The translations under genes were made by a program, and so were the position numbers. From Rhytidiadelphus loreus (Eukaryota; Streptophyta; Bryopsida; Hypnales; Hylocomiaceae): a DNA stretch of 64,000 nt. Below the pieces are notes generated by a model. That model was given only the letters and a program-made list of their open reading frames with translations. It ran no database searches and was not told the origin of the DNA. This document shows positions 5,020-63,478 of the stretch, piece after piece (the stretch's first letter is position 1; every line of letters starts with the position of its first letter). The stretch covers positions 10,049,501 through 10,113,500 of the forward strand of contig OX344762.1 in the NCBI GenBank assembly GCA_947034895.1. The letters are read 5' to 3'.

Positions 5020-5023
5020 TTAT

Positions 5024-5957
5024 CCCCTAAAGGACCATTGTCCCTTCGGGGGACAAATGCATTTTCGGGCAAGTACCTACAGGCTGAAATTTTCTCCTAA
5101 TTTTTTAAATTTTCTTTTGGAGGTAGAAAAGTTGATTAGCTATGTGGAAATATAATTTTTTTTCAAAATCGGTGCCCGGGAACAATAGTTCTGACCAAAT
5201 AAGCTCAAATGAGGGGACGGCAGGCAGCTTGGGCAGCCAAAAAAATGGACAAAAATTTGAATTTTGTTTTTAATATTATTTTTTCTCATAGATTATATTT
5301 TTGTCTATCTGGAAAGCTTTGATTCATTTCATTTGGATATGTTATGAGAAAATTATGGACGTTCTTGTTTTGGGGGCAGTTAGAGCATCTTCTTGAAAAA
5401 AATAACTTGTAGGATTCATTTCTGCATGCAATTTTTCAAATTTTTCAATTTTTTTTTTTTTGCATGGTCTGATTTACTTGCTAGAACAATCTCACCACTG
5501 GGATTAGTGCATTTTAATTCCATCTAAAATATATGACTATTTTAGATTTTCCTTCTATCTCATACCTACTTCTACTTAAAAAAAAAATTGAGAATGATAA
5601 TTAATTTTTTTTTTGAATTTTTTTTTTACCTAGACTCTCAACTCAATTCTCCACTATAAAGATTTAAAGCTCAAAACTCTGTAGTGCAAAAAAATTTAAG
5701 TTAAAAATGTTCAAAGTCAAAAAATCTACTCCCGCAATGTGCTGAAAAACTTGTTTTTTCCACTTTAAACGCAAATATCTTGCAATCTGAGCGGTCAAAA
5801 ATTTTGAAATTTTTTCCACACTCTCATACTAGTTAGGTGTAATATCCTATGGTTAGATATGGAAAAAAAAACAATGTTTCAATTTTTTTACTCCTTGCTA
5901 TAGGTATGGTGATTTTGAGTGTTTTCTAGAAGAAAAAAGGCCTTGGTCCTTTAGGGG
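5024..5957 (+). mobile_element. 934-bp TTAA-type (piggyBac-like) non-autonomous element, copy A
   Basis: The element begins CCCCTAAAGGACCATTG and ends as the inverted complement, GGTCCTTTAGGGG. It is flanked on both sides by TTAT (5020-5023 and 5958-5961), a one-base variant of the TTAA target duplication of the family. A second copy of exactly the same length lies at 62545-63478 and is well over 90% identical by eye. The interior is AT-rich and non-coding, with a GC-rich patch near 5210-5240 (gacggcaggcagc). A TTAA target and terminal CCC are hallmarks of the piggyBac superfamily; the assignment is inferred from the ends only. Confidence 0.75.
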
Positions 5958-5961
5958 TTAT

Positions 5962-19800: not shown

Positions 19801-20990
19801 AGGGCGGATCCTCGTACGGCTGTACCCTCTCCGTATTCGAGGAAAAACCATAGAACATTCCTGCTTCCAGCTGGTGCACCACCAAGTTTATGAGTCCAGT
19901 TGCGAAGGTGCAAACTGTCTGCATTCAGCACCCCGGCCAGGTATGGCAGACTCATCTGACGCGGCACTGCTTGGTCTGGACTCTGGACATTGGGTACTGG
20001 GATTACATCCATTGTACGTATCCTCTATGGGTCTGTTTCTTGGTGAGCAAACTGGCGCAGAAGATTGTACAATTTACGCGGGGATGGCCTGCCACAACAA
20101 GCTGGATAACTCCTACTCTAGCAATAACTCGAATAGGAACACTCTCTTCTCAGTAATTCCCTTACTGAGACTTGATGCACCCACGGTACGGTGAAGTCTT
20201 TTGTTCTGGCGACGCTAGCTCCCCTAGCCATGGAAGCTGGCTCCCACCCTGGCACCCGTACGGCCAAGCTGCCTATCATCCAGGTCTGGGACCAGGGTTT
20301 CTTCGTCTTGTTCTGTTCTTTTTTTTTCCTACGCCTTAATTTATGAAAACCAGAAAAAATCCAAATAAAAAACCGCATCGAACTGACCTTTAGTTTCCGC
20401 AAAAAAGACGGCAAACTGTTCAAAGCCCAAGTGTGTGTGAGCCCTAATTAGACATTGCTTTTGCTCTGACGTTGCTTCAGGTACACTTCAGCTTGCTGTA
20501 AGCCTTGACTCTGATTGGATGTAAGTCAGGCTTGGACATTGGAATTGGTTTGCCTTGCCAATACACATTCTTGCAATGAATTAACCAAACTGAACCAAAG
20601 GGTAATTATCCTTTCGACACACTTGCTCCTGAACTGGGTTTTAGCAAGTAAGACTACTATGAAACAATAGTCTCGTCTGCACTCTGCAGCAACGGAAAAG
20701 GATGTATCCGATGCATGATTTTCATGCAAACGCAGGCCTTTCTGTCACTAGTGAGTGCATGCTTACTGTAAACAATCCTCCACCTACTAAAATTCCAACT
20801 GGCAGGCCCAGTGGATTAGATTCCTGATTCCTTGACGCACTCCACGTACCCTCTCTTCAACCGCCGTTCCCGGATCGGTCGAAAACTCGGAATTACAAAG
20901 TCAACCACGCGGAACCACTGATTGATCAAGTCCACTGATGAGCCCGATGACGAGACTAGTGTCTGTGAGCTTACGAGCCAATCCCAAAGT
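16877..20990. other. Intergenic: AT-rich to 19.1 kb, GC-richer from 19.2 kb to the glyoxal oxidase promoter
   Basis: No gene is supported. From about 19150 base composition rises towards that of the downstream gene. Open frames near 19874-20423 have no domain, hydrophobic pattern or splice logic that would make them genes. Confidence 0.4.
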
Positions 20991-21004
20991 CCATCGCTAG
21001 CACG

Positions 21005-21010
21005 TATAAA
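21005..21010 (+). promoter_or_regulatory. Probable TATA box of the glyoxal oxidase gene
   Basis: TATAAA occurs in the context CACGTATAAAGCTCC, 208 bp before the first ATG of the gene, which would place transcription start near 21035-21040. It is the best TATA match in the GC-richer upstream DNA. No start-site data are available. Confidence 0.5.
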
Positions 21011-21217
21011 GCTCCAGGTGGGCCAAGGTCACACACACTTCTATCCAGCTCCAATTTTCCTACAGTTCTCAGAAGCAAGACAGTCCACTCTCGTACTCCA
21101 ACTACGACCTGTCGTCAAACGCTTGTGACTCTGGGTGTACTAGTCTCGGTGCATTTTTTATTTGGACTTCATCGTATTCTAGAGCTCGATCAGAGAGAGC
21201 TGGTGAAGGGATCAAAA

Positions 21218-23235
21218 ATGGGTGTGGTGAGTCTAGTGATTGTGCTGGTTCTGATACAGAGCTGGATGGCTTTGTCACCTGTTTCAGCGCAAGGCTCATG
21301 GCAGGTGATCCAGCAGAACGCCGGCATCGCGACCATGCACGCCGCGGTGACGCACTTCGACACGGTCATCCTTCTGGACCGCACCAATACGGGTCCGACG
21401 CAAATCAAGCTACCAAACGGCCGCTGCCGCAACCAGCCTCTGGAGCGTATCTCCAAGACAGACTGCTATGCGCATTCCGTGATGATGAATCCCGGGAACG
21501 GCGCAGTCCGCCCCTTGTACGTCTTCACAGACACTTGGTGCTCTTCGGGGCAGTTCTTCGACAACGGCGTCATGGTGCAAACCGGCGGCGACTTCGAGGG
21601 CAACAAGAAGATACGAACTCTCTCGCCCTGCGCCGCGGGCGGCACCTGCGACTGGGTGGAGCTCGGGGAGAATCTGAACATGGGGCGCTGGTACTCCTCC
21701 AACCAGCTGTTGCAGAGTGGGACTCGGCAGATCATCATGGGCGGTCGCGGCACGGCGACGTACGAGTTTTACCCCAAACGGAAGGCTGGTGAGGGCTCCT
21801 TCAATCTGGGCATGCTGGGCGGGTCGGACAACCTCTATCCGTTTGTGTTCTTGCTTCCCAACGGCGACTTGTTCGTGTTCGCGAACATGGACTCCGTGCA
21901 GTTGAATTGGAACACTGGGAAAGTAGTCCGAAACTATCCCAAGCTCGGACCCAATCCCCGGAACTACCCCTCCGCCGGATCCGCAGTCATGCTACCCCTC
22001 TCGTTCGCCTCCGGATTTGCGAAAGCGGAGATTCTGGTTTGCGGAGGAGCGGCGGCCGGGGCCTCACGAACGAACAATGTAGGCGCGGCGGCTTCCAAGA
22101 GCTGTGGCAGGATTGTAGCCTCTGCGGGGACCGCAGGATGGGCTATGGAGGACATGCCGTATGGGCGCACGATGGGTGACATGCTGAACCTTCCGAACGG
22201 GGAGGTGATAGTTATTAACGGCGCCGGGAATGGATTCAACGGCTGGGGGAAGGCGAGCGCGCCAGTCTTGAACCCCGTCAGTTACAATCCCAATGCCGCA
22301 GCGGGGAGACGATTCACGACGTTAGCGAAGACGGGCATTGCGAGGTTGTATCACTCCACGGCCAGTCCGTTAACGGATGGCAGGATTCTGGTTGCGGGAA
22401 GCAACACGCACCAGTTCTACACCTACACGGGCGCATTCCCCACGGAGTTTCGCGTCGAATGCTTCTCGCCTCCGTACTTGGCCGCAGGGTAGGGATACAT
22501 CCATCAACATCACCTCGCCCATCCGTCTCTGGAGTAATTTGTTATTGTTATCTCTCTAATTGTCGATTTTGTGGACAAGGTCGTATTCATTGAAAAAGTA
22601 TGTTGTAGAGTTCCAAAACCGTGACATTCACCAAGTACGTACCCAAAGTGTTGAACACTAGGATAGTATGTATAGATCCATCACCTCGGGATAGCTAATT
22701 TTTTGGGGGGGTGGGATGGGGGCATCGCCAACTGTGGATTCGTCAAAACTGGAGTGTTGTCGCTACAGTTCCAAAATCGTCACTTTCACAAGTGCCCAGA
22801 GCGTGCTCCGAGATTTCCGTACCCTTCACCAAATTCTAGCTTTGTCATGTATGTGTGATTTTGAGGTGCCCCTGTTCACGCACTGACATGTTGAGGTTCG
22901 TGGGTTGCAGCAACAATGCCGTTAGGCCAGCGATAACCGGCACCCCCGGCGCGTTGAAATACAACCAGGTGTTCACGATGACGTTCAATGTGGCGACGCG
23001 AGTGGGAGGTGTGACCGTGTACCAGAACAGCGCGCCGTTCACCACGCACTCGTATTCTCAGGGACAACGATCTCTGCAGTTGAAAACCACGGTGCCCGTG
23101 AAGGTCGGCGCGGGGTGGTCTATCCAGGTGACAGCCGCGCCCAGCAACAACATTGCGCCGCCGTCGTATTACATTCTCTATGTGGTGCAGAATGGCATTC
23201 CTTCCAAGGGCAAGTGGGTGAAGCAAAACAACTAG
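21218..23235 (+). CDS. GLOX: Secreted glyoxal oxidase (galactose oxidase-like copper radical oxidase)
   Basis: The product oxidises small aldehydes such as methylglyoxal or glyoxal, or a related alcohol substrate, releasing hydrogen peroxide in the apoplast. There are two exons, 21218-22488 and 22911-23235, joined in frame across a 422-bp GT-AG intron, giving 531 residues, the normal family length. ATG at 21218 is the first in the transcript and opens a signal peptide (residues 1-24, ending SPVSA). All radical-copper residues align: Cys83 in TDCYAHS and Tyr159 in GRWYSS (the Cys-Tyr cofactor pair), Tyr378-His379 in ARLYHSTASP (axial tyrosine and copper ligand), and His470 in FTTHSYSQGQ (second ligand, in the C-terminal DUF1929 domain of exon 2). 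Kelch-like repeats lie between. Plant relatives act in pollen, tapetum or defence-related wall chemistry. The true substrate cannot be told from sequence. It stands alone amid repeats. Confidence 0.95.
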
Positions 23236-25265: not shown

Positions 25266-25489
25266 CCCCTTAACGCCTCAATCCTTTTTCAAATTTTCAC
25301 ACATTTTTGCTTATATCGTTGTACAGTAATCATCATTTACCAAAATTTCATGAAATCGGACATAAAAGAAGGTTGTCTTTACAAGATTCAAGTGTTACAT
25401 TGGATGAATGAGAAGGTAGTTGGATGAAACAACGCATGTGCAAGCCCTCTATTCATCGTCAAAAATATGGATGTTGGAGCGCTTAAGGG
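25266..25489. mobile_element. TTAA-bounded MITE, unit 1 of a three-unit concatemer
   Basis: The 224-bp unit is flanked by TTAA at 25262-25265 and 25490-25493. Its ends are inverted: CCCCTTAACGCCTC at left and GGAGCGCTTAAGGG at right. The interior is unlike units 2 and 3. The target site and terminal CCC match the TTAA family elsewhere in the window. Confidence 0.65.
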
Positions 25490-25493
25490 TTAA

Positions 25494-25945
25494 CACTTAA
25501 ATGACAAAGGGGTGACCTTGGAAATCATCCCTTTCCATTACCGTGTGAATTATGGGTTTTAAAAATAGCAAAAGCACTCATTGGAAGTTAAACTACTGTA
25601 GAAGACCTCCTTTTTTCACAACAAATTTTTGAAGATGATTAGTTGCACTTCTGTCCTAGTGCAAGGATTCCCTGTCATCCATCGGACACCAAACGTCATT
25701 TTTGACGTTTAAGGGTTAAAGGATGAAGATGTGACAAAGGGGTGACCTTGGAAATCATCCCTTTTCATTACCTTGTGAATCATAGGCTTTAGAAATAGCA
25801 AAAGTACTTATTGGAAGTCAAACTATTGTAGAAGACCTCCCCTTTTCACAACAAAATTCCAAGGATTAATAGTTGCACTTCTATCCTACTAGAAGGATTT
25901 TCTGTCATCCATTAGACGCCAAACATCCTCCTCGACATTTAAGGG
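25494..25945. repeat. Two tandem ~225-bp TTAA-separated units (units 2 and 3)
   Basis: Units 25494-25715 and 25720-25945 are about 88-90% identical by eye and share GACAAAGGGGTGACCTTGG near the start and ACATTTAAGGG or ACGTTTAAGGG at the end. TTAA lies between them (25716-25719) and after unit 3 (25946-25949). Unit 2 has inverted ends (CACTTAAATGAC versus GACGTTTAAGGG); the left end of unit 3 is degraded. Confidence 0.7.
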
Positions 25946-35639: not shown

Positions 35640-36303
35640 GTAGATTCTACAGCTTGTTACTCTCTATAATGTGTTGAAGAAATAAATTGGAAATACATAC
35701 AAAAAATTTCAAACAAAACAAATTTCATATTTGTGCTTGAAAAAAATATTAAATTGAAAGAAATAGAGTATGATTTAAAATACTAAATTGTTAAGAATTT
35801 AGTTATAGAATTGAAAAATGCCAATACCAATGGTTGCAATGTTCTAATAAAAAATCTATATCCCAATTTTTTATTTTATTTCAAAAATATTGAAAATTGA
35901 ATCAAATAAAGCACTTCAAAGTTTATCATAGAGTAGAGATTCCATAACTACCCGCAAACTAAAACTCCTCATAAATTTCATCTTTCTAATGAAAATGGAA
36001 TGATTCAAAGCTTTTGACTTATATATAAATCTCGAAAACCAATTTCAAATTTTTATTTCTTAAAAAAAGTGATTTTTAAAGAATTTTTTTGAGTTGGTTG
36101 GGTTGCCCGTCTAACAAAGAAAATCACAAATCATATAATAACTTTTTAACCATGTAGTCAAAACTTTTGAAACTTTTACATCTCAAAGCTATTCCTTGGA
36201 CACATGTTGTGTGAATTTCAAAGAAAAAAAATAAAAACTTAATTTGTAGTGAGCTGCCCAAAATTGCTATACTGCCAAGAAACACTATTTGGTCCTATAG
36301 GGG
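35640..36303 (-). mobile_element. Truncated TTAA-type element
   Basis: This stretch matches the corresponding part of the 59098-60019 element in the same orientation, sharing blocks such as CAATGGTTGCAATGTTCTAATAA and CCGCAAACTAAAACTCCTCATAA with small changes. It ends TTTGGTCCTATAGGGG followed by TTAC. The other end, with its CCC terminus, is missing, so it is a broken copy. Confidence 0.6.
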
Positions 36304-38606: not shown

Positions 38607-41600
38607 TCAGATTATAACCCGCATGGGTTTTTCTTTCAGCCCAAGCTTGACCTTCTTCGTTTTTCGCCACGACTGCCATTCCGAAGTACTTCTTTGGACA
38701 TGATCTGTGGAAAGGTCCAGGCTCAAAATTGTCCCCGTGCTACTACTACTGTTTGTATCTTGGTCCAGGTTCCCAACATCCAAGAGACCCGATTGAATTT
38801 CCAATTTCACAAGATTACTACCACTAGCGTTCCCATCACTCACCATTCCAGCAACTGTGTCTTCCACATCTTTACTCCTGATATCCACCATTTTGGATGC
38901 TTTCTGATGATGTTCGCTTTCAGGATGGTCTTCGCTAGAATAACTCTTCCCAACAACTTCATCTCTGGCAGTGTGCCTTCGCCGCTTACTCTCCCTAGAA
39001 GCTCTCTCTATCCTGTGTTTGGTTTGTTTTAAATATTTCTCTTCCTGCTCCTCACTGCTGGAGTAGTGGCCATCTTGACTGCGTGCCCTATGGGAAGTCG
39101 ACCTATCCTGGCTCCTTGACTTCCGGGCCCTGTGGCTACTTGGACTTCTTGACCTTCTTCTCGAGCGATGGCGGTGGCTTCTGTGGTGGCCAATACGATC
39201 AGAGGTTGGGGAATGTCTACCTGAAACAGAGGCAATTTTACACAAGTTATTGCCCGACTCATATCAGAAAGTCTCAAAGTTTTAAGGCGAAAAAATTTGA
39301 ACACATCAAAAACCGAGACTTTGTAAAAAGATATGTAAAAAGATATGTAAAATGTCGGAGGGGCGTGTTGAGGCACTAGTCAAAAATCACCACTGACCTG
39401 GATGACCAGCATCATCGTCATCATCGTGTTCGTCATTCGTAGCACTCCTATGGTGCCGCTCTCTTCTTCGATTCCTATGATGAACCATGTCATCTGTCTC
39501 TGGGTTGTCATCACCTGCAATCCATCTCTCATCGTTGATGCATCCTGGTTCACCCCCATGAATGGAAATCCTTGCTGAATCATCATCATATATTGAATCT
39601 CCTCCAAACTTCTCTCTCATCCGATTATCATAGCTATTCTCTTTTGAATGCCTTGCTGAATCGTCATCATATATAGAGTCTCTCTCATGCTCCTCCCTCT
39701 GTCCATCATAACTTTTCTCAATCGAACGCCTTCCTCGGTGTCGATCATTGTACTTCGATGACCCTCTCCTTGTCCGGTCTTTCATTTCATCTTCATAATA
39801 ATACTTCCGTTCTCTGTCACTCCTGCCGCTTCTTTGATCATCCTCGCGTGCAGAATCTCTCATACGCCTATCTCTCTTGCGGTCGTTATCATACACCAGT
39901 TCTCTGTCGTCTCTGTGTCTTGCCCTATGATCAGTATCGTGAGTGGATTCTCTAGGAGTCCTTGATCTCTCATCAACCTCTTCATCAGAAACATGGGCAT
40001 ATCCAAAAAGCTTAGCCATCTTTCTCTGCCAGAATCTAGGAGCTGGTCTGTCCGTGTCTGCCCACTCATACTCCCTGTGGGGATTTTCGAAACAATGCAA
40101 GAAATTGCACGCTGTTCCGCGAGAACATGTCTGCAGAGAAGAACATGCAATTATGTCACACCCCTACAGAGTGACTAGTTAACCCTTAAATGACCAAGAT
40201 AAAAACAGAAAGTCCGCATTGAGAGATAATAGACAATCTTTCAAAAATATAGGGTATGATTTCTTCATTCTATTGGTACATTTAGTTGCCTTCTTCGGTG
40301 CTTCCTAAATGATTAATTTCAACTCCTCTGGATATGGAAGCGAACACTTTTGGCCATTTGAACAATTAGGGGTCCAAAACAGCTTTGAGAACAACCCGGA
40401 GCTGCTGAATACGTCATCAAAACAGCACAACAACATAACCTTTGCTGATGACAACAGAAACAGCGCATACAGACAATCAAAATATGAAACATCACCTTGA
40501 AATATGTCCTCATAAATTCCCCGCAAATCGCTAGCTTCCACTTGTGAACTCCTACAAATTCACAAGATATCTGAAACTCAGACAAACAAGTAAGCGTTAA
40601 TTGATGTCGAACAAACCATTGCAAAAATAAGAGTCCTACGGTCCACTACACACAAGAACCTGCTGAACTACAGCTGCACTGCATGAGAAGCAATAATGAA
40701 TGTACTGGTTTGGCAATGGCAAATCATGGACAGGGCAAGCAGTGAGTTTGTGGAATTCTTGCCATAACGCCTTTGGCTTCAGGTATCCCTTCAAAACACC
40801 ATGGGAATAGAGAAACCATACCTGTTTCTTAGCATAAAATCGTCCATTCATGTGATTGTAAGCAGTCATTGCCGACTCCTGTGATACATAGTGAACATAA
40901 ACATTTCCTCGCAGATGTGGTGAACTGTTTCGGCATACCTGCTCAATATGGATGCAACAACAAAAGTTACAGTGATTACAATTTAGATCATTTCAAGTAT
41001 ACATACAAAAGAACACCTTTATCAGATAGAGGGCGGAACATTATCCTTCGAATGTACTGTTGGATTCATATCCAATACCTTAAAATTCACAATTTCTCCA
41101 AATTGAATGAACTCTGAATGCACATCGCCGTAGAATTCTTCATAATCTTGTACCACCTCCTCATCAGTGTACTGTCAATCAGCATAGGGCACACACTGGA
41201 TGAAATGCTCGTAACGAACATTGACCATTTAATTGATGCCAATTCACCATCTATCACTGGTGTCAAGGAAATCATTGGCAAGAGAACAATTTTGTTAGAG
41301 GCTCAAAAAACGCGTGATTGTATCATCCTAACGAAGTCACCAATTTTTTATTTGTTCTACAATAAATATCAGCAGTAATTGGAAACACCCATGTCAAAAA
41401 GCTGTCTCAACAGAAAGTTCAGCATTCCGCAGGCAGGATACATCATATGGCTGCCTCCTTCTCACGCTGCCACCTCAACATCCGGTCACCTCTCCGTAAG
41501 GTAAGCTTGTGTGAAGATACATTGGTGCCTTGAGGAAGAATAGTTAAGCAAGACTGAAGGGAAAATAGTTACCATCATTCAAAATGAACGGCAATGGTCG

Positions 41601-44210
41601 AATAAACTACAAAAAGTACGCCACGACGCGAAACAGACCAACTATCTATGGAGATTTCTCGGGTTTCCAACATCGGAAGTGAGTCTGAGGTTCATCCATA
41701 TAATTAGTCTAATGCATGAAAGATAATTAACGCTTTAGATGAACATACGTGTCTAACAATGGTGGATACTGTCCAGTAAGTAGAGCACATTGGCTTCACA
41801 TACACAATTTCCCAAGCAGAGGTGACACTGGTAGAAGGATATTGATGCCAGCACAAACCTCAAGGCTTTCAACAGGCTCCAAAGCTAGGCCAGCCCCAGT
41901 ATACATGGAACGCATCAAAAGAGTGCATGCTTCATTGAACACCGGATGCAGGCGGTTGCACCGCACACCGAAACGGCAGACGCCGGTCTTGATGTAGAAT
42001 GGGCAATTCCTCTGATCCTGCGACATTGCGAAGTGAAAAAGCTTCAGTAGGAAACAGGATCAATATAATTCAAAGTATTTCAAGAGTCTTCTTCGCAGAA
42101 TAGCTTCAAAAGCGGTTTCATTTGTAAGTATTTTCGCATCTCATCAATTAGGACAGCTCAAACATACCAAGGCCTTCTAAAAAGACTAAAGCAATGGGAG
42201 TTGCAAATCATGTCACCTTCTCCGTTCCGAAATTTGTAGACAAATCAACATCTTGAGTATTCGCCTGATAACTCGAAAAAGCAACGTTTTGAGGAGGCAA
42301 CGGATTTGAGATTGGTCCATCTATTTTCTTATCCTGCTGAAATCGAAGCAAAAGTGGTCAAAACATTGATGTCTGCTTGGTTTCCAAACAGACTTCATAT
42401 AGTCCACACCTAACCCGTAAAGGACCAAGAAGCCCAATTGGGCCTCATGTCTGTTAGCAGTTTTGGTAGGTCATGTTAGGGACTCTCTTTCAGCCAATTT
42501 TATTTAATTTATAACCAGCAAATAAAATGTTCTTCATTGATCCTGGTGAAATGAAATTTGGTTCGTCTGAACTATATTTTTCATGATATGATCCAGCAAA
42601 TTGGTCATTCTTATACCATGCATCCTGGTCTTTTAGGGGTTAAATTCATTTGCATGTGACCACTTGCAAACGATGAAAGAGAACGGAATTAAATAACACA
42701 GCAAGCCGTGTTAATTTCTAATAATACTCAACTTATATTTCATATGTCGATAGATCATGCTATATAACCTATTCACACGTCCGTTTAGAAGTTTGAACGG
42801 ATCTTCCAAGATGCTCTAGGTTTATCAAATTCAGAATAAAAAATGGTTCCCACTAATAACGACTACGTTATACACCATCCTGTTCAATATATCAACCATG
42901 ACCTAGAAACCTTTCACATGGAGCACGTATGTTGAATAATCAATATCCTGCAAAGCCGCTCTCTAATGAAAACAAAACAACCAAAACACACAAGTATGAT
43001 TACCTCAATGGCAAGGGGGGTGCCGGAGTGCGAGCCCTTTCGAACTTTTTTACGGGGTTTCTTCACAATAATCTCGTTCCCTTGCCAAATAATTTCGGCA
43101 GGACCATCCTCCACATACTCCCATCCTTCTTCAAGGTCATCTTCACCGCCTTCGCCTTGCAGTCTCCGCTCCTCCTCTTTGCGCTGCAGATCATAACCAG
43201 CCGAACAACTCAAGAATCGCCCCACCAACATTCAAGAAAGCAAGCACTACGGCGTTTCCCTACATACTGTAGCACAAAAATCAATTCGCTCTGCAAATGC
43301 CAATTTCACCAAAAAGAACAAAAAAACAGAGGTGAACGAATTCGGGATGAGCAATCCTGTTTACAAAGCTCGTGCGCAAAATACCTAGGAGTGGATCTTG
43401 AATTTGGATCAGAAACCACTCAAAGTAGAATCTACTGACAAAGCACCCAGAAGCTAATCGCATTGGATCGAACATTGATGCAGCTAGAACTAAGATGTTG
43501 CCCTAATTCAGCACGAACTGTAGCCCAAAAATCTATTCCCTCGCCAAATGGAAATCTTAACCCAGAAAAAAAGAACCAACACACAGTTGAATCAATTTGA
43601 GAAATTCGGTTACGCAACCCTAATACGCAAGAACCCCAGTAGCGGCTCTTGAAATTCGATCAGAAAGTGCTCAAAGTAGAATTCACTGACAAAGCCAACC
43701 AGAAGCTTGTCGCAGTTCAAAGTTGCATTGGATCCAACATTGATGCAGCTAGAACTACGATGTTGCCCTAATTCTGCACGGACCATAGCCCAAAAATCTA
43801 TTCACTCGGTCAATGGCAATCCCAACCCAGAAAAAAAAGAGTACGAACACACAGAAAAAATCAATCCAGCTTTGCAACCCTAATTCGCAAGAGTCCCAGG
43901 AGCGACTCTAGAATTCCAGTAGGCGCTCAAAGTTAAACCAAACCTTTCTCTCTACTTCTTCTTCCTGTTTCCGAATCCATTCGATTCGCGCCTCTTCCTC
44001 TCGCAACAACCACAGCCTCTCCTGCTCCTCGTGCTCAGCCTGCTCCTTTGCCAACGCTTCCTTCTCCTCTCGCTCTTGCCGGATCACCGCCTCCTCATCC
44101 ACCACCACCTCTTCCTGCTGCGCACTCAACAAAGCCGCCTGCAGTCGCTGCTGCTTTCTCTTCAGTTTCTTCAATTCCTTCCGCTTCTCCAGCCGCGACA
44201 TCTCGCTCAC
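38607..44210 (-). CDS. ZRSR2: ZRSR2/Urp-like U2AF35-related splicing factor (CCCH, RRM, CCCH, RS)
   Basis: The product recognises 3' splice sites; in known family members it is needed for U12-type introns and contacts the U2AF large subunit. Nine exons join in frame: 43944-44210, 43004-43183, 42217-42336, 41859-42017, 41079-41171, 40822-40938, 40496-40570, 39398-40130 and 38607-39220, giving 785 residues. Residues 1-100 are a charged Glu/Lys coiled coil starting [13 protein letters not shown]. Zinc finger 1 is C194-x8-C203-x5-C209-x3-H213 ([17 protein letters not shown]). A UHM-type RRM follows, with [11 protein letters not shown] as its RNP1-like block. Zinc finger 2 is C328-x10-C339-x5-C345-x3-H349 ([14 protein letters not shown]). 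The C-terminus (from about 380) is an Arg/Ser/Asp-rich RS domain with [15 protein letters not shown]. Exon 3 has a tandem NAGNAG acceptor. Intron 2 carries a TTAA element and intron 1 a tandem repeat. The gene is head to head with the VAL-like gene. Confidence 0.93.
40179..40192 (+). repeat. Solitary TTAA-element terminus inside an intron
   Basis: TTAACCCTTAAATGACC, the terminal signature of the TTAA family, occurs in intron 7 of the splicing factor gene. No matching inverted end was found within the 365-bp intron, so this is a remnant or a chance match. Confidence 0.3.
42414..42639 (+). mobile_element. 226-bp TTAA-type MITE in intron 2 of the splicing factor gene
   Basis: The ends are CCCGTAAAGGACC and GGTCTTTTAGGGG. 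The flanks are CTAA (42410-42413) and TTAA (42640-42643), so one target copy has mutated. Length and interior differ from the 934-bp copies, but the terminal 13 bp place it in the same family. It is read through as intron sequence. Confidence 0.7.
43266..43930. repeat. Imperfect tandem repeat (about 240-255 bp period) in intron 1
   Basis: Three units recur. Each has AGCCCAAAAATCTATTC or a variant, then AACCCAGAAAAAAA, CAACCCTAAT.CGCAAGA, CAAAGTAGAAT and AACATTGATGCAGCTAGAAC. Units 2 and 3 (from about 43431 and 43671) are most alike; unit 1 is partial and diverged. The last unit abuts the exon 1 donor. Confidence 0.75.
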
Positions 44211-52012: not shown

Positions 52013-54588
52013 AGAATTTTTGGCTACTTATGAAACCCCACTTACAATAGATTTTGGAGATTTAATGGATCATGAATGATCTATGTAATGTACATATGAA
52101 GACAGCAGAGCGGAAGAGCGGAAGCTGGGAGTCATTTCAGCTCAATCGGAATTAGGCATTAGACTACACAGATTGAAAACATGTGTCAAGTTTCACTTTC
52201 TGGAAGATCTTGAACCAGTGAGAGTTTTGGTCTCCAGAGCTTATAAATTCTCCCCAATAGTGTACCCATATACGTTATGCTATCTATCAATGGGACGGGT
52301 GGTCATGCAGGGCTGGTGATCTTAGTTTTAAGTTTACCTCCATTGTCATCAGCAGGATGCTTACTTGTAGGTTACAAGTCGGGATGAGTTTTGATCATAA
52401 GTTCAACTGAACAGTTGATCTGTGGACACACATCAGAATTGTGTTTTGAGCGGAGCGTCTGAAGATGTACCAATTTTGAAAGTCAAGGTATATGGAACAG
52501 GTTTATAGGACTGTGTTTAAGTTTAAGAATTTGCATATTTGGTTTGTTTCTTCCTTTTGCCTCTTTGCAGCTGAGAATTTCCATCCTTTTTTAATGCCAA
52601 CTTGAATTATAGTAGTCCTCTAGGGCAATCAAATACAACTTTAATTAAATACTTTTTGATGAATTATAAATCCTTAGAGCAATCAAATACAGCTGTATTT
52701 AAATACTTTCAGATCGTCATAGTAATTTTTGTATCATTTGGCTCTAACAAATGAATTTTAGTGCATATGTACTAATTAAATGAAGAAATAGTGAAACTAT
52801 CAATAATTAGTGGGTAGGGACATACAATGTTACAGTTAGTAAGTATAAAAAAAAATTGGTATATGTTGTATTATGTCCAAATATTTAATATTATATTTGA
52901 ATTATACAAATTTATTTTTCAAGCATACAATATAACATTAAGTAGTTGAATTGTAGTGATTTGAAAAAATGTACTTGTAATTTGAGAATACATATATGTA
53001 TTGTGATTTGAAATGACATGTATGTGGAATTATTTGAAAGGACATTTGTGCAATGTGATTTGAAAGGACACATATGTAATGTGATTTGAAAGGACACATG
53101 TAATGTGATTTGAAACAACACATATATAATGTGATTTGAAATGACACATATGCAATGTGATTTGATCACTAGAACACATATAATGTGATTTGAGATAGCA
53201 TTTGTAACATATAAAATCATAATTTAATAGAATAGAGATAATAAATAAGGACGATTAATAATCATTTTCATTTTTGAATAAATAATGTGCATATAAATGT
53301 TGAGAAAGAATATGTGAATTCAATACATTTGAATGATATATATGAATGAATCATGAAAAATTATAACATTTTAAAATATAAAAATCAAATAGCAAATGAA
53401 ATTGAAATCTTATAATAGTCATTCAAATTAACACTAGAAAATTATGTGCATTTTAAGGTGTATAACACTATATACTAATACTAATTATAAGAAAACAATA
53501 AAGATTTGAGCTCCTTTGGTTAGCCTCAAATCAACTTTGTTAAGTTTAGATAATAGATTTTCAATAACAATATTAAATTTTAGATAAACCCATGGTCAAC
53601 ATTCTAAATATTCAAACAATGTAAAGAATTTTCTTTTTCAATTGCCAACAAAATTTTACAAAAACTAAGACAAGTTTTTAATGAAGAACGTTAGTCAAAT
53701 ACCAATTCAAACGCTTCTTAGTGTGATTACCTTAACCACTAAAGGTCCCTGCATTTCCAAAATAGATGCTCCTCAGTCAAACTTTATTGTAATTTTCAAG
53801 GTATCCATTTTAGGTTTTGATTTAAATTTTAAAAATGAAGACTAATAAGTTATCTTCTATTCCATTTCAAATCTTTAAGGAAATCTAAGGGTTCAATAAA
53901 TTATTGCAATTGGAAGTTGCATGTGCTATAATCCTGAAATAACACATTGTTGTATGTATTTCATTTGTATTTTCATCTTAAAAAATGATTTTCAAGTTTC
54001 AATTACAAACATTGTTTTTTATCCTAACCTTCATTTTTTTAATCAAAATCCCAAATTATTCTAATACACATTCTAATTGATAAAATTTTATGTTCATACT
54101 ATATATTTTATAAAATCACAATAATTTGAATTTTTTCCAAAATATATTAAAAAAAAATTCTACCAAAACATTATTTATTTACACAAAAAAAATTATCAAT
54201 TTTTTTAATCAAAATTGATTATACAAATGCTAAATTTAGATTGATGGTAGTGATTTGACATGTAGATCATTGCCAAAGGGGTTTTAGATGTAAAAAAGAA
54301 AACAATTATTTCAAAAATATTCACACTATTTTCCATACCTACTTTTAACTCTTGAAGAAATTTGAAATTATTGAGTTTTTTTAATATTTATCAATTTATT
54401 TTTATTTATTAGTTCAAAATAAAATAAATTATGATTTATTAGAAAACTAATAGATTCTTCACATTGATAGATAACACTTAGTTTCATGGAATAAAATATT
54501 ACATTCACATTCAAATATGATTTGAAAGGCTATATTGAGTTTTCAAACAAAATTTGACCATTTGGCAATAGAACCAATCCATTAGGGG
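52013..54588. other. 3' flank of VAL and AT-rich intergenic DNA
   Basis: To about 52600 the sequence looks like 3' UTR and flank. A 60-bp imperfect duplication lies at 52620-52720 (GGGCAATCAAATACAACTTT and GAGCAATCAAATACAGCTGT). After a minisatellite at 52.95 kb the rest is AT-rich with no gene seen. Confidence 0.45.
52951..53200 (+). repeat. Minisatellite, ~23-28 bp unit, about nine copies
   Basis: The unit is approximately TGTGATTTGAAAGGACACATATGTAA with size variation between copies. It produces overlapping minus-strand frames of repeated SNHI and SFQITL peptides that are not genes. Confidence 0.9.
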
Positions 54589-54592
54589 TTAA

Positions 54593-55787
54593 CCCCTAAA
54601 GTCCCATTGTCCCTACAGGGGACAAAATGGATTTCAGGCAAGTTCTTATGATCTTAATTTTTACTGAAACTTTTTGAAACTTTTTCATAAGATAGATAAA
54701 CTTATGAGCTTTCCAAGAATAAAAATTTTATTCCAATTGGTGCTTGGGAGCAAAAACTATGCCACAATAACCTCAAAATGGGGAAGACCGGGCAGCAAAA
54801 CAAATCCACCAAAAATTGAATTATAATTTTTTACAGTTTTTTATTCTTGTATATTACTCCCTCCGCCCCAAAATGATCTTCCAAATGGCCTTAGTTTCTT
54901 GTCCCAAAATGATCTTCCTAGGTGACGTGGAAGAAGAGCCCGGGAAATCAAGCCTTTGCACAGTAGGGTCACAAAAATTCCTCCTGTAATGGGTAATTCC
55001 TCCCGAGCTTTGGAATAGTGGAGTCGAGCAATAATGTGGGCAAAAAGGTGGTGGCAAGGATGACATAGCCATTACCTGTTAATAGTCGACATGTTTTGGA
55101 CAAGTATTCCGAATTAGTAATTGCAATTTCTTGACTAGAAATGACTTTTCGGGGCTATAGTTAGCTTGGTGATTTTGTAAGTTGAACCATTGCGGGAATG
55201 ACCACGCACAACGCGGGAAGAGAAAGGAACGCAACTCCATAGTGCGGGAGTTCATGAAACAATTGGTCACCATTACTCCAAAATAATGGCCCAAAAATGC
55301 CTCTCTTCAATCCATTATAGCTAAATTTTAAGAACTTATCCAAAAATGAAATTTTGAGGACAATACAAGTGCATCAAAATCTACTTACTGGTAAAAAAAA
55401 ATTGAAAAATTGTTATTTTCAAGCTTATTCTAGACCATTTTGTGAAAGAGGAAGATCATTTTGGGACAGAGGGAGTATATTTTCTTCTAAATGGTAAGCT
55501 TTTATTCATGACATTTGGATTAGTGATGTGAAAGTTATGGAGTTCTTTGTTTTGTGGGCAATCATAGCAACTTCTTGAAAGAATTTTTTTCTTCTACTTT
55601 GAATGCTAATATCTTTCAATCTATATGGTCAAAAATCACAAAAATTTTGTCACTTTATCTAAGATAAGTGTAGAACAAGATCCTATGGTTAGATTCTAAA
55701 AAAATTTAATTCATTTCATAGGTGAATATAGCAAAAGTGGTAGTTTTGAGTGGTTTTGGCAAAAAAATAGCCTTGGGACTTCAGGGG
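54593..55787 (+). mobile_element. TTAA-type element interrupted by a Stowaway-like MITE
   Basis: The flanks are TTAA at 54589-54592 and 55788-55791. The left end is CCCCTAAAGTCCCATTGTCCC and the right end GGGACTTCAGGGG. The outer parts align with copy A at 5024-5957 but are more diverged. Removing the nested 619-bp insertion leaves about 574 bp. Just before the left end, TTAGGGG precedes TTAA, making a palindrome TTAGGGGTTAACCCCTAA, as if another element end had abutted it. Confidence 0.7.
54857..55475. mobile_element. Stowaway-like (Tc1/mariner) MITE, 619 bp
   Basis: The terminal inverted repeats are CTCCCTCCGCCCCAAAATGA at left and the complement of CTCCCTCTGTCCCAAAATGA at right, flanked by TA on both sides (54855-54856 and 55476-55477). 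CTCCCTCCGTCCC ends with a TA target are the classic Stowaway signature. A second CCCAAAATGATCTTCC occurs 49 bp inside the left end. At 619 bp it is longer than most Stowaways, and no transposase is encoded. Confidence 0.85.
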
Positions 55788-59097: not shown

Positions 59098-60019
59098 CCC
59101 TTAAAGGACCGTCACTATACTTTCACCAAAAATGCTCCAAAACTGCCATTTCTAGTACAAGTACCAAAATTTTGAAAAAAAACTTTTTTTGACATATCTA
59201 ACCGTAGGATCTTGTATTATATAGTATCAAAAACATGTGGTAAAAATTTCAGACATTTCCACCGGGTGGATTGCAAGATAGAAGCATTCAAATTAACTAA
59301 AATCATTTTTTTGACCGTGTGAAAAGCAGGGCAGCTGCACTTCACAAGCTCACATTTCTATGAAAAAATGACCTAAATGGTGGTGCTTCTTGGATTTGTT
59401 TTCCTAGACAAATTGGCCACATGCTTAAAAATTTTCAGATTATTTGGAATAGTACAACATATAGGGAAAAAATAGTAAGTAGGTAGAAGTATAGAATGAT
59501 TAAAAATACTAAATTATTTACAATTTAAATATGGAATTGAAAATTTCCAATCCCAATGGTTGAAATGTTGTAATAATGTATCTACATCCTACAATTATAT
59601 TTTTGTCCAAAATATTGAAAATTGGGTAAGATAAAGGATTTCAAAGTTTATTTTAGAGTAGGAAATCCAAAACTGTCCGCAAACAAAAAATCCTCATAAC
59701 TTTTGACTCATTGATCAAAATGGAATGATTCAAAGCTTTTCATGTATACGAAACTCTAGAAAATCAATTCCAAATTTTTATTTATGAAAAAAGTGATTTT
59801 TTTTATCTGCCCGAACTGCCCTGTCGGTGAAAGAAGTAACATATTCGGCCATAACTTTTGACTCGTATTTCCAAATGTCACGAAATTTGGTGCATATGAA
59901 AGATATTCCTTGCCCCCACATTCTATTAAAATTTCAGCCCCAAATACAAAAATCTCTGCTCGTAGGTACCTGCCCAAAATTTCTATACAACCAAAAAACA
60001 CAATCCGGTCCTTTAGGGG
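59098..60019 (-). mobile_element. 922-bp TTAA-type element, inverted relative to copies A and B
   Basis: The flanks are TTAA at 59094-59097 and 60020-60023. The ends are CCCTTAAAGGACC and GGTCCTTTAGGGG. Its complement shows the same order as copy A, including GGTACCTAC near the terminus and a GC-rich GGGCAG patch. The interior is strongly diverged, so this is an older subfamily; 35640-36303 is a truncated relative. Confidence 0.75.
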
Positions 60020-62544: not shown

Positions 62545-63478
62545 CCCCTAAAGGACCATTGTCCCTTCGGGGGACAAATGCATTTTCAGGCAGGTACCTA
62601 CAAGCTGAAATTTTCACCTAATATTTTGAATTTTTTTTCGGAGGTAGAAAAGTTGATTATCTTCGTGGGAATATAATTTTTTTCGAAATTGGTGCCTGGG
62701 AACAATAGTTATGACCAAATAAGCTCAAACAAGAGGACGGCGGGCAGCTCGGGCAGCCCCAAAAAAATGGACAAAAATTTGAATTTTATTTTTTATTTTA
62801 TTTTTTCCCATAGATTATATTTTTGTCTATCTGGAAAGCTTTGATTCATTTCATTTGGATATATTATGAGAAAGTTATGGACATTCTTGTTGTTTGGGCA
62901 ATTAGAGCATCTTCTTGAAAAAAATAAGTTGTAGGATTCATTTCTGAATGCAATTTTTCAAATTTTTCAAATTTTTTTTCTGCATGGTCTGATTTACTTG
63001 CTAGAACAATCTCATCATTGGGATTAGTGCATTTTAATTCCATCTAAAATATATGAATATTTTAGATTTTCCTTCTATCTCATACCTACTTCTACTTAAC
63101 AATTTTTTTAAGAATGATAATTAATATTTATTTGAATTTTTTTTTCTTACCTAGACTCTCAACTCAATTCTCCACAATGAAGATTTAAAGCTCAAAACTC
63201 TGTAGTGCAAAAATTTTAAGTTAAAAATGTTCAAAGTCAAAAAATCTAGTCCCGCAATGTGTTGAAAAACTTGTTATTTCCACTTTAAACGCAGATATCT
63301 TTCAATCTGAGCGGTCAAAAATTCTGAAATTTTTTACACACACTCTTATACTAGTTAGGTGTAAGATCCTACGGTTGGATATGAAAATAAAACAATTTTC
63401 AATTTTTTTTATTCCTTGCTATAGATATGGCAGTTTTGAGTGTTTTCTGGCAGAAAAAAGGCCTTGGTCCTTTAGGGG
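62545..63478 (+). mobile_element. 934-bp TTAA-type (piggyBac-like) element, copy B
   Basis: A perfect TTAA lies on both sides (62541-62544 and 63479-63482). It begins CCCCTAAAGGACCATTG and ends GGCCTTGGTCCTTTAGGGG. It has exactly the same length and orientation as copy A and over 90% identity, indicating a relatively recent burst. It is non-coding. Confidence 0.8.

Follow-up and report, generated by a model that had tools for sequence, protein, structure and literature searches.

Non-coding TTAA-flanked elements of a moss have ends homologous to those of a piggyBac transposase element

Introduction

Which superfamily do short elements with CCC termini and TTAA borders in a moss genome belong to, and which transposase moves them? 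The question arises from a 64-kb stretch of DNA (the window; C2:10049501-10113500 of the 407-Mb assembly of Rhytidiadelphus loreus, in which sequences C1-C5 of 94, 90, 85, 75, and 51 Mb together hold ≈395 Mb). The original prediction for this stretch described a piggyBac-like MITE family with at least five insertions that share the same ends. Animal piggyBac-derived MITEs are non-coding, are flanked by TTAA, and have ends in common with a transposase-bearing element.

piggyBac is a known superfamily that is thinly documented in land plants. A repeat table for the fern Ceratopteris includes 1,230 PiggyBac elements (PMC6890710), and a review counts PiggyBac as one of seven superfamilies of angiosperm MITEs (PMC10004981). 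Plants are also mentioned in general terms among piggyBac hosts (PMC8086355; PMC10794571; PMC10813416), and red algae are named as hosts (PMC12732532). Given these mentions in print, plant piggyBac is not without precedent. A MITE survey of 207 plant genomes uses five superfamilies, without piggyBac, and one special group (PMC12550479). Our literature search, which had most subscription journals outside its scope, returned no titles or abstracts that describe an autonomous moss piggyBac element. Within that search, the scale and clear anatomy of piggyBac in this moss appear to be new.

Results

Elements in the window

Allowing at most two mismatches on both strands, the 13-bp TIR CCCCTAAAGGACC matched the window 13 times compared to 0.73 matches expected, and each of 100 shuffled windows gave at most 3 matches. 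The shuffles, and the reversed control of the genome-wide count (below), led us to reject a chance origin.

Element A (5024..5957, plus strand) is a 934-bp non-coding piggyBac derivative with the perfect 13-bp TIRs CCCCTAAAGGACC/GGTCCTTTAGGGG, and it is bordered by TTAT on the left (5020..5023) and on the right (5958..5961). Element B (62545..63478, plus strand) has TTAA on both sides and is 91% identical to A. As predicted, both are exactly 934 bp long, and they are the two elements with perfect ends on both sides. All five predicted sites hold elements; of these five, only A and B have perfect ends. The predicted abutment to TTAA or a one-base variant stands, with the correction that A has TTAT, and not TTAA, at both borders.

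The other elements are more diverse. Element E (54593..55787, plus strand) spans 1,195 bp between TTAA words and has the ends CCCCTAAAGTCCC and CCCCTGAAGTCCC; it measures 574 bp after subtraction of a nested, TA-flanked, Stowaway-like element of 619 bp (CTCCCTCCGCCCCAAAATG...; 54857-55475) and its TA. Element C (59098..60019, minus strand) is a 922-bp member of a diverged subfamily, with TTAA on both sides and reversed relative to A. Element F (35741..36303, minus strand) is partial and 72% identical to C, with a right end (GGTCCTATAGGGG) followed by TTAC and no left end found. Internal blocks of E, C, and F are common to A and B or to one another. The predicted insertion at 42414, element D (42414..42639; 226 bp; CTAA left, TTAA right), matches at 11 of 13 TIR positions, but it has only its ends in common, and its interior corresponds to no other window element.

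The predicted list had missed element G, the right end of F at 36303, and a tandem trio. Element G (53736..54588; 853 bp; TTAA on both sides) adjoins E, with one TTAA common to both; its TIR is weak (8 of 13 positions), and its membership in the family is uncertain. The trio H1-H3 (25266..25945) consists of three repeats of 222-226 bp with TTAA borders in common and ends such as CCCCTTAACGCC and CCCTTAAATG. H2 is 84% identical to H3, whose left end is unlike the others (4 of 13 TIR positions). These repeats are possible derivatives of other piggyBac groups, and their membership is likewise uncertain. A tblastn search of the window with four transposases as queries found no transposase (best E 0.02).

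Copies across the genome

Exact CCCCTAAAGGACC occurs 6,502 times genome-wide (3,242 + 3,260), compared to 1 + 1 occurrences of the reversed control. The TTAA-preceded form TTAACCCCTAAAGGACC accounts for 5,550 of these (2,745 + 2,805; control, 0), so that 85% of ends stand directly after TTAA; the other 952 exact 13-mers are not preceded by TTAA. The related word TTAACCCCTAAAGTCCC occurs 1,123 + 1,086 times (control, 0).

Twenty genomic copies were fetched by the criterion of exact CCCCTAAAGGACC at both ends; by this selection all 20 carry the 13-bp repeat, with termini 5'-CCCC and GGGG-3'. TTAA is present on both sides of 17 copies and is replaced on the left by TTAC or TTAG in the remaining 3, and the sequence beyond TTAA varies between copies. 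Two subfamilies (9 and 8 copies) show mean divergences between copies of 7.9% and 7.1%, and the longest stop-to-stop frames in their majority consensuses are 84 and 79 aa. As in MITEs, there is no transposase coding, the copies are many, and the ends are common to a transposase element (L079, below). By contrast, 14 of the 20 copies are 917-947 bp long, compared to a typical MITE length of 50-800 bp (PMC12550479). Because these 14 copies exceed this range, "internally deleted non-autonomous piggyBac" is a safer name than the predicted term MITE.

Duplication of the target site

For 35 elements, we connected the two flanks through a single copy of the 4-bp border and aligned these joined sequences to the loci fetched and to the window. 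Matches spanned the joint for 10 of the 35, and 7 of these 10 cases were judged convincing. Some fetched loci overlap (for instance L003/L032, L004/L033, L005/L034, and L060/L079), so that spanning matches do not equal independent places.

For element A, whose filled site is framed by two copies of TTAT, three uninterrupted copies of the host repeat contain TTAT once (L029, 92.7% identity; L081, 92.2%; L048, 89.8%). All four spanning matches of A are gapped within the 24-base joint zone; in the three that were inspected in alignment, the gaps of 1-2 bases near the joint lie outside the TTAT. The transposase element L079 has an ungapped empty site in L008 (92.6% over 176 bp) with a single TTAA. 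Single TTAA words also mark the empty sites of L026 (in L034; 94.7% over 75 bp) and of L029 (in L048, 89.8%, and in L081). L010, L024, and L041 are inserted within other elements of the same kind, and the joint is ungapped in 48 of 49, 31 of 31, and 29 of 29 spanning matches to uninterrupted copies, respectively, with overlapping loci counted twice. At the target place, the uninterrupted copies for L010 mostly have TTAG or another word, and those for L024 and L041 have TTAA in twelve matches each.

The three other candidates were rejected: L015 matched its own inverted end, L022 had a single match at 70%, and both matches of L028 were gapped at the joint. The convincing paralogous empty sites, which in this sample contain one 4-bp target where the filled site contains two, therefore show that the elements inserted at TTAA-like targets and duplicated 4 bp, in one case at a one-base variant. 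They also reject the possibility that TTAA is part of the element. Other TTAA variants are known for animal piggyBac (PMC10813416).

A transposase element with related ends

Genes matching PF13843 (DDE_Tnp_1_7), for which the original prediction proposed a genome search, proved to be abundant. There are at least 767 first-look candidates in the genome, of which 116 were scored and matched (best E 1.9e-80); all listed matches were above the cut-off, and the candidate counts are lower bounds. No PF13843 match was found in 14 control genomes.

One such gene lies inside a 4,844-bp element, L079:2116-6959, whose two 13-bp ends are identical (CCCCTAAAGTCCC) and which is bordered by TTAA left and right. 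Its transposase is an open frame of 530 aa (PF13843, E 5.6e-79). The protein matches the insect piggyBac transposase 6x67 (E 4.9e-31) and piggyBat 9c0f (E 1.1e-23) with the aspartates aligned. The catalytic DDD motif is present, with D185, D274, and D392 aligned to the Trichoplusia ni (T. ni) transposase, and these three residues and D395 are invariant in an alignment of 21 sequences. The majority consensus has, judged from sequence alone, a Cys/His pattern at the C terminus. An AlphaFold2 model (mean pLDDT 85.7) had 6x67 (E 1.1e-25) and 9c0f as its top Foldseek matches, and Tn5 transposase matched more weakly. Upstream of the transposase, an acidic 216-aa frame (L079:3221-3871) that matches no Pfam family may be a first exon.

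L079 is the only full-length, stop-free copy found in its lineage. L058, whose protein is 72% identical and contains stops, also ends in CCCCTAAAGTCCC, and relatives above 60% identity have stops or are partial (81 scored of at least 1,163 candidates). The transposase gene within the same 13-bp ends, for which the original prediction proposed to look, was found only in part: the ends of L079 are identical to each other, but they differ from CCCCTAAAGGACC at 2 of 13 TIR bases, and the inner part of each repeat reads GTCCC where CCCCTAAAGGACC has GGACC. No transposase element with exact CCCCTAAAGGACC (GGACC) ends was among the retrieved elements, and none of 30 loci had a complete transposase element within 1.5-kb flanks. 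L040, L042, L043, and L044 were considered as transposase elements and rejected; they have common flanks and contain a 552-600-aa frame instead.

Two side observations can be added. A larger repeat, with copies that are ≈98-99% identical and have their flanks in common, contains a fixed GGACC-type end in L040, L042, L043, L044, and L002; the 552-600-aa frame of the first four is on the other strand. Beside the L079 element, L079:1177-1320 holds three direct copies of TTAACCCTTAACCCCTAAAGCCCC, 60 bp apart; here, close to the transposase gene's element, an element tip has been amplified locally.

Homology and a subterminal palindrome

Of the 21 small elements fetched (L009-L029), 20 match L079 at both ends with the relative orientation preserved, and so do A, B, and E in the window. 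The homology extends over ≈50-95 bp at the left end (73-84% identity) and ≈50-530 bp at the right end (67-83%). In the 934-bp elements, the left homology covers only ≈90 bp at ≈80%, and a large part of the interior is without a match to L079; in A, the matching bases are 1-90 and 739-852. The left 13-mer of E, CCCCTAAAGTCCC, is exactly that of L079. A single end region of C matches, and no match to L079 was obtained for L016, for D, F, G, H1, or H2, or for the window stretch from 40183. In L010, a 651-bp GGACC element is nested between paired GTCCC ends (within C1:872450-874027), an arrangement consistent with two waves of insertion.

Close behind one tip, many small elements and L079 have a 19-bp palindrome, TTGTCCC-N5-GGGACAA, at element positions 15-33. 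In the window, it lies on the plus strand at 5038..5056 in A (positions 15-33), 62559..62577 in B, and 54607..54625 in E. The stem is at least 7 bp in 19 of 25 small elements and 9 bp in L079; the L012 palindrome has a longer stem at positions 17-41. It is weaker or absent in the other six (C, where no clear palindrome is present, and L016, L020, L024, L025, and L029), and nothing beyond a different stem of 6 bp is present at the opposite element end. The palindrome was not found in L081 or L082, two further transposase elements described next.

Other transposase lineages

Complete transposase elements with different TIRs number three: L079, L081, and L082. The L081 and L082 transposases are 33% identical to that of L079, and their elements end in CCCCTCAAYGCCC and CCCTAGAACGCCC, respectively. 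A further group comprises at least nine stop-free transposase frames of 626 aa. One member, L080 (C1:28702800-28712799; L074 is the same locus), matches L073, L075, and L076 at 98-99% identity over ≈4 kb, which implies recent movement of this group. Its element ends were not found within the 10 kb that make up the L080 locus. The 626-aa frames are preceded by a repeated stretch.

In database searches that depend on matching 5-residue words, the named organisms among the best 120 of 140 matches to the L079 transposase were a shark (29% identity) and a bee (27%), and the closest relatives among the matches listed were metagenome contigs (82%). The L082 search gave 34 proteins, in which the named organisms were animals and the closest match was a contig (81%). 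No named plant or model-moss protein was among the matches listed for L079 (120 of 140) or L082 (34 of 34).

Discussion

The 4-bp target duplication, the CCC ends, and the homology of these ends to a transposase element bear out the predicted piggyBac reading; CCC starts are usual in piggyBac (PMC10813416). We are highly confident that the A-type elements represent non-autonomous piggyBac derivatives, internally deleted or rearranged, that would be mobilised in trans by DDE_Tnp_1_7 transposases encoded elsewhere in the genome.

Other superfamilies can be weighed against the same evidence. One Sola group has TTAA targets, and the 4-bp, AT-rich target would suit Sola-type derivatives; however, the element whose termini are homologous to theirs encodes a piggyBac transposase, which makes this origin extremely improbable. 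Nor is there much more than a vanishing chance that the elements are of the PIF/Harbinger (Tourist-like) type, with a 3-bp TTA/TAA duplication and a fourth base that is due to chance or part of the element. Tourist elements, known as MITEs of plants, do duplicate TAA/TTA (PMC10004981). However, TTAT stands twice at A and once in each of three empty sites, implying that the fourth base was duplicated too, and the related transposase is again piggyBac; we therefore rejected this reading, as four bases and not three are duplicated. Kolobok likewise duplicates TTAA, but its termini are 5'-RR and YY-3' (PMC9587614), in contrast to 5'-CCCC and GGGG-3' in the moss, and the transposase of the related element L079 belongs to PF13843. 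A Kolobok derivation was rejected for its wrong terminal bases, and we consider it next to impossible.

Within piggyBac, the source of the transposase is a closer question. The L079-type lineage is probably the supplier for the GGACC group. It is appreciably less probable that another, so far unseen transposase group of this genome moves the GGACC elements, in which case L079 would be a sister and not their supplier. In line with a sister relationship, two TIR bases differ, the three complete transposase elements have three different TIRs, and the scored candidates amount to only 116 of 767 and 81 of 1,163. By contrast, only L079 among the three has subterminal sequence in common with the small elements, and element E, which is homologous to A, has the left 13-mer of L079 exactly.

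If the L079-type transposase acts like that of insect piggyBac, it would cut at the element tips, and 4-nt TTAA hairpins would form at the cut ends. The donor site would be left seamless after excision, and the excised element would insert into another TTAA. The C-terminal cysteine-rich domains, acting as a dimer, would hold the 19-bp palindrome near one tip and in this way pair the left and right ends. In insect piggyBac, two ends are bound, and at only one of them a dimer of this domain contacts bp 17-33, which lie in a palindromic repeat of 19 bp (PMC7351741). The moss palindrome would fit such a mode of end binding.

T. ni piggyBac, whose 13-bp TIR begins with CCC, differs from the moss element in its transposase, which is 22% identical in structural alignment; the moss element, moreover, is 4.8 kb long with an upstream acidic frame that is maybe a separate exon. 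The two are alike in their CCC ends. They also have in common DDE_Tnp_1_7 with aligned catalytic aspartates and TTAA duplication (6x67, 6x68; PMC7351741). Both also have a 19-bp palindrome close behind the tip, with the T. ni dimer on bp 17-33 compared to positions 15-33 of the moss palindrome (PMC7351741). However, T. ni has palindromes at both ends with differing spacings (PMC11707139), whereas the moss has one at a single end. In this respect, the moss resembles piggyBat of Myotis lucifugus (9c0f), which is similar in sequence and fold and has palindromes on its left end and none corresponding on the right; however, the imperfect piggyBat palindrome occurs three times on that end (PMC11707139), compared to one copy in the moss. 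The small moss elements are like animal piggyBac MITEs in being non-coding and TTAA-flanked with ends common to a transposase element; they differ in their host, a moss, and in number, CCCCTAAAGGACC alone occurring 6,502 times in the genome. The Ceratopteris table and the angiosperm review likewise assign land-plant sequence to piggyBac, but the table line and the list entry give no ends, duplications, or transposase (PMC6890710; PMC10004981).

As to activity, the stop-free 626-aa copies, at least nine in number, suggest that piggyBac may be moving in this moss today. By contrast, the closest relatives of L079 have stops or are partial, so that the peak of the GGACC/GTCCC group may already lie in the past. 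A broader scenario, which we put forward tentatively and hold to be somewhat doubtful, is that this moss carries a large, still active radiation of true piggyBac. Several transposase lineages with 13-bp ends of their own (CCCCTAAAGTCCC, CCCCTCAACGCCC, and CCCTAGAACGCCC) would each multiply a distinct set of small elements, and the superfamily would either have entered this moss lineage or have been retained in it.

With at least 116 recognisable transposase loci, thousands of element ends, and duplication shown, this moss makes it testable by which route piggyBac came into land plants or survived there, and whether piggyBac resident in a plant is active. These results also suggest that plant MITE surveys limited to five superfamilies may misfile TTAA elements.

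Other features of the window

Rfam and tRNA scans of the window found nothing. A GLOX (glyoxal/galactose-oxidase-like) gene at 20969-23235 has mosses as its closest named relatives: the protein is 78% identical to that of Ceratodon purpureus and 74% to that of Physcomitrium patens, and one further match reaches 82%. On the minus strand at 38607-40992 lies, judged by eye, a putative gene for an Arg/Ser-rich, U2AF/ZRSR-like splicing factor.
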